Below, piece by piece: positions 58,613 to 64,000 of a stretch of 64,000 nt of DNA. The translations under genes and the position numbers were made by a program. Source of the DNA: Paenibacillus sp. GM2 (lineage in GTDB: Bacteria > Bacillota > Bacilli > Paenibacillales > Paenibacillaceae); assembly GCF_900069005.2 (NCBI RefSeq), contig NZ_LN831278.1, forward strand, positions 588,235-652,234, read 5' to 3'. The notes under the pieces were generated by a model. It was given only the letters and a program-made list of their open reading frames with translations. It was not told the origin of the DNA and did no database searches. Each line of letters starts with the position of its first letter. Position 1 is the first letter of the stretch.

Positions 58613-59548
58613 ATGGACGTAGTTATAAATGGAAAAGCGCGAGAGGCGTTGAATCGGCTGGCCGCTATGCCTGGCATGGCTCAGGTCAAAGATCAGATCG
58701 AACAAATGGTTCAGTTCCGTCGAATCGCCGAGCTTCGTAAACAAAATCGATTGAAGACCCGGCCACAGACGAATCACATGGTTTTCACAGGGAACCCCGG
58801 AACGGGTAAGACTACAGCAGCGCGTTTGATTGGAGAAGCTTTCGCCGAGTTAGGTCTATTAAAACGTCAGGGGGAGCAGGTGCCTTTCGTAGAAATCAGC
58901 AACTCTAAGATCGCACATCCACACGTTGGGGAATCTGAGCAGATTGTAGGTAAAAAATTCAAAGAGGCGAGAGGCGGCGTTCTGTTCATTGATGAAGCTT
59001 ACTCCCTCATTGGGCACGGAGATCACAAGTCGGATATGAAGGTTGTTGCTGCAATAGTTCAATATATTGAAGATCTACGCGACGAGGTTATGGTCATTGC
59101 GGCAGGCTACCCTAAAGATATGGCTAAATTTATCTCTTTTAATCCTGGACTTGCTTCCCGGTTCCCAACTACAGTCCATTTTCCTGATTATAACGTACCG
59201 GATCTTGTCCGAATTGCGCAGCAGATGATACTAGATCAGGAATATCAAGCTGCTCCGGATTACTTGGATGCCCTGTCTAGTGTTATGTGGATTGAGAAAA
59301 GCAAGCCTAATTTCGGAAATGCGCGATCAGTACGAAACCATGTCGAGCGTTCTATTAGGAAACAATCGATTCGGGTTTCGCAAATACCACGGCCCTCTCG
59401 TAAGGATCTTGCAACTTTGATCGCTGCGGATCTGGTGCATTCGCCTAGTGATTTACAAGCGGCTGAAAGAGTAGCGTTGAACCAAATCATTACAGAAGCA
59501 CAGGGGCGGCTGCTTCAGCTAGATTTGCTTTCTATATTAAAAGCTTGA
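58613..59548 (+). CDS. CbbX/SpoVK-type AAA ATPase
   Basis: The 311-aa protein (ATG 58613, AAGGA 9 bases before) has a central AAA module: Walker A GNPGTGKTT (60-68), Walker B GGVLFIDEAYSL (D127, E128), and sensor ARSVRNHVERSI near the end. The layout with the pre-Walker segment AMPGMAQVKDQIEQMV is that of CbbX/SpoVK proteins. It lies between the DNA polymerase and a sigma factor, an unusual place. A role in remodelling polymerase or sigma complexes is a guess. Confidence 0.9.
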   Translation: MDVVINGKAREALNRLAAMPGMAQVKDQIEQMVQFRRIAELRKQNRLKTRPQTNHMVFTGNPGTGKTTAARLIGEAFAELGLLKRQGEQVPFVEISNSKIAHPHVGESEQIVGKKFKEARGGVLFIDEAYSLIGHGDHKSDMKVVAAIVQYIEDLRDEVMVIAAGYPKDMAKFISFNPGLASRFPTTVHFPDYNVPDLVRIAQQMILDQEYQAAPDYLDALSSVMWIEKSKPNFGNARSVRNHVERSIRKQSIRVSQIPRPSRKDLATLIAADLVHSPSDLQAAERVALNQIITEAQGRLLQLDLLSILKA

Positions 59549-59562
59549 TCGGAGGTAACTCC

Positions 59563-60669
59563 TTGAATATTGGATACAATCCCCATTTGGGATATGAGGC
59601 TGATGTATTACGAGATTACGAGAATATGGTTCATTCAGTAGCAAATAAATTCCGGCGATCTATAGGAACTGGTGTTGACTACGAGGATCTTGTGTCTGTC
59701 GGGATGCTGGGACTGATTGAGGCGTTCCGTAACTACGATCCTGATCGGTTCGATGGGAAAGTCACATCGTTCTCTACTTACGCCTTTCCTATGATCAAAT
59801 GGAGCGTTCAACGCTTTCTTAGAGATAAAAGAAACACTGTCCGTGTTCCGAGGCTTCTCCAAGAAAAAATAACTGCCATTCGAAAACAGGGCTGGGAACA
59901 GGAAACAGCGGAGAAAATTGCCGAGATAACCGGCTGGAAGCTTTCCGAAGTCCGGGAAGTCCAGAAGCATCTGAATGGCTGGTCGGTGGCTTCATTAGAT
60001 CAGACCGTGGCAGTAACGGATAAAGGCGACGAGGATGTTACATTGTTGGACATGATGTCCAGTACGGAAGACTTTACGAGAGTGAATGTTCAGGAGTTTA
60101 TGTCGTATTTGTCAGATACGGAGCAAGTAGTGATTCAAATGCGGCTTAAGGGTTTTACGCAAAGCGACATTGGCAAGCAAATAAGAAAAACACAAGTACA
60201 TGTCTCCAGGGTCTTGTCACGGATCGGAACTAAATATCATCAATTCGAGAAGGGAGAATTAATAATGGCCAGACCACAAATAAAACCAGAAGTAATGGGA
60301 TTTGATATACCGGGATTAGATAAGAGCGCTAAAGTTGAATGGTTTATCGATGAAGGGGTACCGACGAATCCAACGATCGGGATAAACGGTCAGGGGTTAA
60401 GTCTGAATCAAAGAGCCATACACGAATTAGGGGTAAAGCCCGGCCAATGTGTGCAGGTGGGTTATGAGCCAGCAAGTCAAAGGCTCTTAATCAAGGTGGC
60501 TGATAATGGGCTTAAGCTTAAAAAGAATGGAAGGAGTAGCGGGCTTAGCATCGTAAATAAGCGATTAACTTCTTGGCTGCAACAAAAAGAGTTGCCTTTG
60601 AAGCGTTACGTTCTTCATGCGGACCGGAATTCTGGAATTCATTATGTTTACTTAGACCGCCATGCGTGA
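59563..60669 (+). CDS. Sigma-70 family factor with extra C-terminal domain
   Basis: TTG 59563 has GGAGG just upstream; 368 aa. Residues about 10-235 form a sigma factor like those of the sigma-B/F/G group: region 2 (VDYEDLVSVGMLGLIEAFRN, FSTYAFPMIKWSVQRFLRDKRNTVRVPR), region 3, and region 4 (LSDTEQVVIQMRLKGFTQSDIGKQIRKTQVHVSRVLSRI). After FEKGELI comes a further domain of 134 residues not found in ordinary sigma factors. An ATG at 60265 with an AAGGGAG site can start that domain alone. It probably controls later element genes. Confidence 0.9.
   Translation: MNIGYNPHLGYEADVLRDYENMVHSVANKFRRSIGTGVDYEDLVSVGMLGLIEAFRNYDPDRFDGKVTSFSTYAFPMIKWSVQRFLRDKRNTVRVPRLLQEKITAIRKQGWEQETAEKIAEITGWKLSEVREVQKHLNGWSVASLDQTVAVTDKGDEDVTLLDMMSSTEDFTRVNVQEFMSYLSDTEQVVIQMRLKGFTQSDIGKQIRKTQVHVSRVLSRIGTKYHQFEKGELIMARPQIKPEVMGFDIPGLDKSAKVEWFIDEGVPTNPTIGINGQGLSLNQRAIHELGVKPGQCVQVGYEPASQRLLIKVADNGLKLKKNGRSSGLSIVNKRLTSWLQQKELPLKRYVLHADRNSGIHYVYLDRHA
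60265..60669 (+). CDS. Possible independently translated C-terminal domain of the sigma factor
   Basis: Within the sigma gene AAGGGAG (60250-60256) lies eight bases before ATG 60265, in frame, at the junction between sigma region 4 and the extra domain. The 134-aa product MARPQIKPEVMGFDIPGLDK and on has a strand-rich middle (GLSLNQRAIHELGVKPGQCVQVGYEPASQRLLIKV, shown in parts), recalling small phage DNA-binding-like proteins. It may be made both fused and free. Confidence 0.45.
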   Translation: MARPQIKPEVMGFDIPGLDKSAKVEWFIDEGVPTNPTIGINGQGLSLNQRAIHELGVKPGQCVQVGYEPASQRLLIKVADNGLKLKKNGRSSGLSIVNKRLTSWLQQKELPLKRYVLHADRNSGIHYVYLDRHA

Positions 60670-60838
60670 TCCGTATTTTCAAGACATCCCATGGGATTTG
60701 ATATATGACGATAACGGCGAGCTGATCGGGGAGGTTTATGCTATCCTTCCTGATCCGCCAAGGAGGAGACACAGTAAATGTCATACGAATTCTATATTAC
60801 TCCAGAAGAGTACAACAAGGCAGCCGGAAACGGAATAA
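60662..60838 (+). CDS. Possible tiny overlapping phage gene
   Basis: ATG 60662 overlaps the sigma stop. The first 39 residues (MRDPYFQDIPWDLIYDDNGE and on) look protein-like and fill the gap to 60778, but the frame then runs into the next gene and has no ribosome site of its own; translation would rely on coupling. Confidence 0.3.
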   Translation: MRDPYFQDIPWDLIYDDNGELIGEVYAILPDPPRRRHSKCHTNSILLQKSTTRQPETE

Positions 60839-61933: not shown

Positions 61934-64000
61934 ATGCAATACGATAGACAACTAACCATTTCATCCGCCGGCAGCCGGAACAGCACAAACTGGCAGCCAC
62001 AAGTGATCTACTGGTCTGAGCTGGTGGAGCGCCTGCGGACAGCTACCAGAGGCACAGAGACGCTGGCGCAGTACCTGGCAATGCCGAAGTCCCAACAGGA
62101 CGACCTGAAGGATGTCGGGGGCTTCGTCGCTGGAGCCCTGACTGGTGGACGCCGTAAGGCTGGGGCTGTGACCGGACGCGATGTAATTACGCTGGACTTG
62201 GACAATATTCCTGCAGGAGCCACAGCAGACATATTGCGCCGCCTCGATGGCTTAGGCTGCTCTTATGCCGTTTACTCTACCCGGAAACACGAAGAGGCGA
62301 AGCCGCGGCTACGTGTACTTGCTCCTCTTGATCGGACGGTTACGGCAGATGAATATGAGCCGCTAGCACGTAAGCTGGCGGCCATCATCGGCATAGAACT
62401 TTGTGACCCGACAACGTTTCAGGTGACGCGGCTAATGTACTGGCCGAGCTGTAGCGCAGATAGTCAGTACGTATTCACTTATGGGGATAAGCCATTTTTA
62501 TCTGCAGACGGTCTTCTCAGTTTATATACTGATTGGCGTAACTGGCAGGAGTGGCCGCAGGTACCTGGGGCTAGTCAGGCACATGTAAGGATGGCCGCAA
62601 AGCAAGGCGATCCAACAACAAAGCCTGGCATCGTTGGAGCGTTCTGCCGAATCTACGATGTGTCGGCAGCCATTGAGACGTTTTTGCCGGGGATCTATAC
62701 CACCGTAGATGATGGCAGCGGCCGTTTAACTTTCATCGGCGGATCCACTACAGGTGGCGCGATCATTTATGATGACGGCCAGTTCCTTTACTCGCACCAT
62801 GCTACTGACCCGTGCAGTGGTCGCCTGGTCAACGCCTTTGATCTGGTCCGTCTGCACAAGTTTGGCGATCAGGACGACGATGCGAAGCCAGGAACGCCAA
62901 CGAACAAGCTCCCGAGCTATACGGCCATGACTACCTTTGCGCTGCAGCAGGAGGCGGTAGCGGGGCTGCTAATGCAGGAGCGATACGAGAGAGCCGTGGA
63001 GAGCTTTGGCGATACTGCATTAGCTGCTCCGGACAATATGGACTGGATGCAGAAGCTTGAGATAAATAGCAATGGGATGTACCGGAAGACAGTCGATAAT
63101 GTCCTAATCGTACTCGAATACGATCCGGTTCTGAAAGGTAAGATCGCCTTTGATGAATTCGCCAATCGAGGGCTTGTGCTTGGCGCTCTTCCTTGGGATC
63201 CGCGAGAGGATCGGAGGCCTTGGGCGTCTTCCGACGACGCCGGAATCTATCATTATATCGAAAAGGTATACGGCATTGCCGTAGAAGCTAAGATCAATAA
63301 CGCCCTTACGCTTGTATCACATAAGCATAGATTCAATGATGTTCAGCGGTATTTGGAGAGCTTGCAATGGGATGGGATCCCGAGATTAGATACTTTGTTA
63401 ACCGACTACTTAGGCGCTGAGGACAGCGTTTATACCCGGGCAGTGTCTCGTAAATCATTCACGGCTGCCGTAGCCCGGGCTATGGTGCCGGGTTTCAAAT
63501 ACGATTACATGCCGATCCTTGCAGGCCCCCAGGGGCTGGGGAAGAGTACCTTCCTACGATTAATGGGCAAGAGTTGGTATTCAGATAGCTTGACCACCTT
63601 CGAAGGTAAAGAGGCCTGCGAGATGATCCAGGGCATCTGGATTAATGAAGTCGGTGAGCTGACGGGGATGTCCAAGTCTGAGAGTAACGCCGTTAAGCAG
63701 TTCCTTAGCCGTACGGAAGATATTTATCGGGAAGCATACGGCAAGCGGACTATGCCATATCCGAGGCGCTGTGTATTCTTCGGGACTACGAATGACAGCG
63801 AGTTTCTACGGGACAGAACGGGGAACCGCCGCTTTTGGCCCGTGGATGTTGGACTTGTACAGCCAGTGAAGAGTGTCTTCCGTGATCTAGCTGGAGAGGT
63901 TGATCAGATATATGCGGAGGCCTTTGTACGCTGGCAGTTGGGAGAGCAGTTGTATTTAACCGGAGAGGCAGAGGAGCTAAGCAAACAGCAGCAAGAGGCC
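61934..64000 (+). CDS. VapE-type primase/helicase, partial (runs off window)
   Basis: The frame from ATG 61934 stays open to the window edge (689 codons). The first 300 residues resemble the N-terminal primase-like part of large phage replication proteins (TLDLDNIPAGATADILRR; LCDPTTFQVTRLMYWPSCSA in parts). The C-terminal part is the virulence-associated E (VapE) ATPase: Walker A AGPQGLGKST near residue 530, Walker B-like GIWINEVGEL, then RTEDIYREAYGK, FFGTTND and RRFWPVDV. It completes the DUF2800-DUF2815-polymerase-VapE replication module. Confidence 0.9.
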   Translation, partial: MQYDRQLTISSAGSRNSTNWQPQVIYWSELVERLRTATRGTETLAQYLAMPKSQQDDLKDVGGFVAGALTGGRRKAGAVTGRDVITLDLDNIPAGATADILRRLDGLGCSYAVYSTRKHEEAKPRLRVLAPLDRTVTADEYEPLARKLAAIIGIELCDPTTFQVTRLMYWPSCSADSQYVFTYGDKPFLSADGLLSLYTDWRNWQEWPQVPGASQAHVRMAAKQGDPTTKPGIVGAFCRIYDVSAAIETFLPGIYTTVDDGSGRLTFIGGSTTGGAIIYDDGQFLYSHHATDPCSGRLVNAFDLVRLHKFGDQDDDAKPGTPTNKLPSYTAMTTFALQQEAVAGLLMQERYERAVESFGDTALAAPDNMDWMQKLEINSNGMYRKTVDNVLIVLEYDPVLKGKIAFDEFANRGLVLGALPWDPREDRRPWASSDDAGIYHYIEKVYGIAVEAKINNALTLVSHKHRFNDVQRYLESLQWDGIPRLDTLLTDYLGAEDSVYTRAVSRKSFTAAVARAMVPGFKYDYMPILAGPQGLGKSTFLRLMGKSWYSDSLTTFEGKEACEMIQGIWINEVGELTGMSKSESNAVKQFLSRTEDIYREAYGKRTMPYPRRCVFFGTTNDSEFLRDRTGNRRFWPVDVGLVQPVKSVFRDLAGEVDQIYAEAFVRWQLGEQLYLTGEAEELSKQQQEA

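Follow-up and report, generated by a model that had tools for sequence, protein, structure and literature searches.

A phage-type sigma factor gene of Paenibacillus sp. GM2 with a predicted AbrB/MraZ-like tail and a putative internal start for the tail alone

The window analysed here is a 64,000-base stretch of the Paenibacillus sp. GM2 genome, to which all coordinates refer. On its forward strand, an open reading frame of 368 residues (59563–60669) runs from a TTG start to a TGA stop and joins a sigma factor to a C-terminal tail. GGAGG lies 7 bases 5' of the TTG at 59563, with an anti-Shine-Dalgarno pairing energy of -12.1; an alternative in-frame TTG start is possible at 59545. An AAA ATPase gene (58613–59548) lies directly upstream, and the open reading frame that begins at 61934 looks, as judged by eye, like a protein of virulence-associated-E type. 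Brevibacillus phage Emery likewise has a sigma factor, an AAA ATPase and virulence-associated E as neighbours. The same gene was also found on a 41,813-base viral contig (locus L006, from a viral collection), which suggests that the window gene most likely sits in a prophage. A tRNA scan of the window found none, and a search for a second copy elsewhere in the host genome returned only a match at E 0.185. The last bases of the sigma gene are shared with a small open reading frame (60662–60838, MRDPYFQDIPWDLIYDDNGELIGEVY...), to which a close match lies behind the sigma gene of genome G003.

The N-terminal part of the frame (59563–60264) comprises, by Pfam and NCBIfam, a SigB/F/G-like sigma-70 portion (regions 2 to 4) and a short stretch behind it. 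The original prediction had called this a full sigma-70 region 2 to 4, which held for region 2 and for the sigma factor as a whole. Region 2 matched PF04542 over residues 17–91 (E 3.1e-12, 46.6 bits against a cut-off of 24), and the NCBIfam sigma70-ECF superfamily model spans residues 14–221 with 82.9 bits, above its cut-off of 42.9. Region 4 (PF04545, residues 181–220, E 7.2e-4) scored 19.5 bits, under its cut-off of 24.1, and region 3 gave a Pfam E of 0.26 only. The SigB/SigF/SigG family model (TIGR02980) spans residues 15–221 at E 9.3e-36, a likeness that nevertheless falls under the family cut-off. To our knowledge, cellular SigB/SigF/SigG members carry no such tail. The 134 residues of the tail had been described as free of sigma features, and a Pfam search of 60265–60669 agreed, giving nothing meaningful (best E 0.064).

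At the junction, the predicted in-frame ATG (60265) and AAGGGAG (60250–60256) are both present in the sequence, separated by 8 spacer bases, and the frame of the tail alone (60265–60669) is nested in that of the fusion. The energy of this internal site is -13.2, compared with -12.1 for the sigma factor's own TTG start. It is one of 382 internal in-frame ATGs from 58 script-derived, non-overlapping window frames of at least 100 residues: six of these reach -10.8 or lower, and ATG 60265 is the strongest of all. The junction ATG with its site is more than chance would give in the window. The first part of the tail (60265–60363) is probably disordered, as judged from predicted models, and would form a linker in the fused protein and the N-terminal part of a free domain. 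In the full-length model, pLDDT is below 50 at residues 235–267, with low overall confidence (pTM 0.30); in the free-domain model it is below 50 at residues 1–8.

The idea that the tail is unique to the element in the window was rejected, as relatives were found in other genomes and in phages. Tail matches were found in 3 of 59 genomes of relatives, 2 of 40 genomes of the genus, 2 of 398 of the class, 8 of 394 of the family and 8 of 392 of the order of G048, these sets overlapping. Seven are real in each of the last two sets; the match in G454 (L023, E 6e-4) was dropped as false, as the sequence looks like a sensor kinase. Matches in G048, G780 and G544 are not sigma fusions. Among 50,697 phage records, six carry the tail. 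Counting each protein once, there are 15 distinct sigma-tail fusions across genomes of the same class and phages: the window gene (identical to L006), G003 (identical to L009 and L016), the Vegas group, L010, L011, two in G651, G644, two in G600, L040, G542, Emery, L015 and G135. The Vegas group was read from the DNA of phage Hayley (L004); the G805 protein is identical, and the phage search gave similar matches for Vegas, Vadim and Diane. L014 differs from L011 by a few residues, and L012 and L013 have similar profile scores. One of the two G651 fusions ends at a contig end and retains only 39 sigma codons.

Comparison of these fusions showed that 11 of the 15 have an in-frame junction ATG 8 bases past the last G of a purine-rich site. 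The site reads AAGGGAG in the window and G003, AAGGGAGG in the Vegas group, L010 and L011, AAGGAGG in both G651 fusions, AGGGAGG in G644, and AAGCGAGG in both G600 fusions and L040; in one of the latter (G600a), the second of two ATGs is the spaced one. The linker residues vary across these genes (KGELI, KKGAVR, KREAIN, SKEETA, TREEFV and SEEWK, for example). The GGGAG core of the Vegas group lies one base further upstream than that of the window and is therefore read in another codon phase. In three further fusions, of Brevibacillus type (Emery, L015 and G135), AAGGGA is followed after 4 bases by an in-frame GTG. The energies are -10.3 and -10.4, at rank 6 of 397, for Emery and G135; the GTG of L015 was judged by eye. 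Emery also has a later ATG, which lacks a ribosome site (rank 229 of 397). The remaining fusion, G542, has no clear junction start: its GTG is a weak case, for which 57% of recodings are equally good.

Energies at the 11 junction ATGs range from -10.8 to -13.2. These genes contain 88 other in-frame ATGs, the strongest of which reaches -8.7; the four fusions without a junction ATG (Emery, L015, G135 and G542) were left out of this comparison. We chose the cut-off of -10.8 with the junction values already known; any value lying between -8.7 and -10.8 leads to the same split, 11 of 11 against 0 of 88. The corresponding Fisher p of 8e-15 is overstated because the genes are related. In all 10 ATG-type genes ranked (L040 was left out), the junction site stands at rank 2 to 6 among all codon positions. 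Neighbouring codons that share one site were counted, so that a rank of 2 is close to the top. Recoding with synonymous codons alone matched the site energy in 6–18% of trials per ATG gene, so that much of the signal is the choice of amino acids; combined p values were 0.009 for seven genes or 0.017 for four deep lineages, with independence assumed. Most of the signal accordingly comes from lineages whose differing residues all encode a junction site. The site and its 8-base spacer are kept over pairs of fusions down to about 30% tail identity. These comparisons make it very likely that internal initiation at the junction is selected for. The proposal that fused and free forms both exist is thereby supported in part, through a junction start and site kept in relatives as ATG (11 of 15) or GTG (three).

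Outside sigma fusions, the tail occurs as a gene of its own, as had been asked of related elements, in two elements of more than 200 kb. One is a 206,307-base contig (G544), also present in the viral collection, where the tail gene has its own AGGAGG 10 bases from the start and a frame that reads like a reductase follows downstream; the sigma part was not found within 19 kb around this gene. In the other, a 214,846-base P. urinalis plasmid, the tail is a 159-residue 'hypothetical protein' beside annotated ribonucleotide reductase genes. Both elements (L043 and L044) are probably large phages or phage-plasmids. In two more genomes, G048 and G780, the tail is joined to a non-sigma helix-turn-helix protein, with no ATG directly before the tail. 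Between Emery and G135 (L005 and L008) the tails are 87% alike and the sigma parts 49%, a mismatch that suggests a likely exchange of modules at the junction; in the other 12 printed pairs (of 66), tail and sigma identities lie within 10 points of each other. Phage PG1 was considered as a split form, with the sigma factor followed by a separate tail gene, and was rejected: the next gene overlaps by 4 bases and is unlike the tail by eye.

The AF2 model of the tail has a mean pLDDT of 79.8, with ten-residue blocks at 78–93 over residues 31–130. The predicted fold, from about tail residue 35 on, is AbrB/MraZ-like. The best matches among solved structures were four MraZ chains (Z 6.5, 5.7, 5.4 and 5.0), two of them titled UPF0040, an older name for MraZ. 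The top match aligned 85 residues at an rmsd of 3.0, its Z being middling by the tool's own note, and plant B3 DNA-binding domains followed at Z 4.6 and less. Foldseek against the PDB gave no match at E 0.001 or better, a tail-profile sequence search of the PDB gave a best E of 0.4, and the window tail matched neither PF04014 (MazE) nor PF02381 (MraZ) at E up to 1. The first half of the tail aligned in register with a profile of four AbrB-like sequences from the same genome, scoring 20.8 against a maximum of 13.8 in 100 column shuffles, at an hhalign probability of only 36%; when MraZ repeats were added to the profile, the score fell to 16.0 and the probability to 5%. The second half did not match the AbrB profile (51 of 100 shuffles were equal or better). 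A tandem repeat within the tail was rejected, as repeats 1 and 2 score 10.1 against each other, a value reached by 11 of 100 shuffles. A stand-alone homologue gave sub-threshold hits to TIGR01439 AbrB (E 0.099), an antitoxin family (0.18) and an AT-hook (0.076). Tails are basic (pI 9.5–9.9) in 11 of 12 cases, the exception being G600a at pI 6.8. Among 50 listed viral Foldseek matches, 22 had a probability of at least 0.87, five of these with E 0.001 or better; 13 of the 22 are shorter than 150 residues, nearly all lack a named function, an exception being a C-5 cytosine DNA methylase. Viral scans with both G600 tails found no relatives. Together, these models and profiles give moderate support to a tail fold nearest MraZ with an AbrB-like first half, both of them DNA-binding types, and to the tail as a candidate DNA-binding domain. 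The original prediction had spoken of the sigma factor's own regulatory domain, a role that is putative. By sequence, the second half is unlike the MraZ and AbrB transition-state regulators.

The fusion itself is already on record. PHROG 351, 'RNA polymerase sigma factor', includes genes of Paenibacillus phage Hayley and Brevibacillus phage Emery with the same sigma-tail fusion; its profile matches the window protein over residues 9–345 (E 7.2e-71) and the window tail alone at profile positions 781–871 (E 2.8e-6). More distant tails alone escape it (L040, E 0.068; G600a, no match). Deposited phage genes give the fusion a single product name, 'RNA polymerase sigma factor', and in the two phage records examined neither the tail domain nor the nested start is annotated. 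The tail is therefore not new to databases; for the domain and the nested start we found no description. Titles and opening parts of abstracts in a literature search, whose scope took in few subscription papers, did not describe the arrangement. Herelleviridae sigma factors (LysYB1 and Moonbeam) also have a long C-terminal extension, which differs from the window tail in looking helix-turn-helix-like by eye (L054, 1971–3332; L056, 1899–3443), and they align with the window protein up to about its residue 232 or 270. For the translation device there is a precedent in Cas11, for which one paper describes internal in-frame translation and two in-frame products per gene (PMC11899642); Cas11 is a CRISPR effector subunit, not a transcription factor.

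Two in-frame products from one gene would be the simplest account of these observations. The product from TTG 59563 would be a phage sigma factor of the SigB/F/G kind that carries, behind a flexible linker, an AbrB/MraZ-like domain at its C-terminus; initiation at ATG 60265, in the same frame, would yield only that domain. We think it probable that the gene encodes both a free tail and a sigma factor whose AbrB/MraZ-type tail targets DNA. DNA binding by the tail, or its oligomerisation on DNA, is probable, and could tether the sigma factor, together with host RNA polymerase, to those phage promoters at which tail-binding sites occur. The free tail would start with an ATG, at a ribosome site somewhat stronger than that of the TTG of the sigma factor; it could share or compete for the sites of the fused form, or assemble with it, and would thereby set the level or the end of transcription from phage promoters. 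A self-titrating switch of this kind, in which the fused form recruits host RNA polymerase to its sites, the free form then shares or blocks these, and two ribosome sites on one message set the ratio, is a tentative proposal.

Other explanations differ in whether the free tail acts on DNA and whether the internal start is used. The start may be real and the free tail a protein partner, anti-sigma-like or for oligomerisation, that binds the sigma factor in trans, or else a small phage protein that does something unrelated. The occurrence of the tail away from sigma factors and the near lack of named functions among the 22 listed viral matches are compatible with this. However, the best solved matches are DNA-binding folds, the first half matches an AbrB profile and the tails have a basic pI, and we consider a partner role rather unlikely.

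The junction site might also go unused, its sequence reflecting a conserved protein-level linker (lysine/arginine, glutamate and methionine) or a relic of two formerly separate genes. The encoded residues do favour purine-rich codons, as the recoding trials show, but site and spacer stay constant where linker residues differ, even between distant tails, the other in-frame ATGs of the same genes have no such site, and a relic should decay; this explanation is improbable. Still less credible is a ribosome pause that aids domain folding without any translation start: the purine-rich stretch does sit at a domain border, but a pause needs neither an ATG nor a fixed spacer, and both are kept in 11 genes. 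The reading with a fused sigma factor and a free DNA-binding tail is the one we prefer. Should the fused and the free form both be produced, a conserved phage transcription gene would have a second product that standard annotation overlooks, and it would offer compact sigma regulation without a separate anti-sigma gene. The predicted fold also offers an initial clue to the function of a phage domain that occurs by itself, on sigma factors and joined to a non-sigma helix-turn-helix protein, and that has structural look-alikes among phage proteins without assigned function.

A separate observation concerns a helix-turn-helix gene of related elements, which was not found in the window. At seven loci (L039–L042, L003 (1150), L029 and L025, of which L039 and L040 show one and the same stretch), an in-frame ATG with a strong ribosome site (-10.7 to -12.2) lies inside this gene, between an N-terminal peptide and the helix-turn-helix domain. 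The L036 homologue seems by eye to have no internal ATG. This gene is possibly a second two-product gene of these elements.
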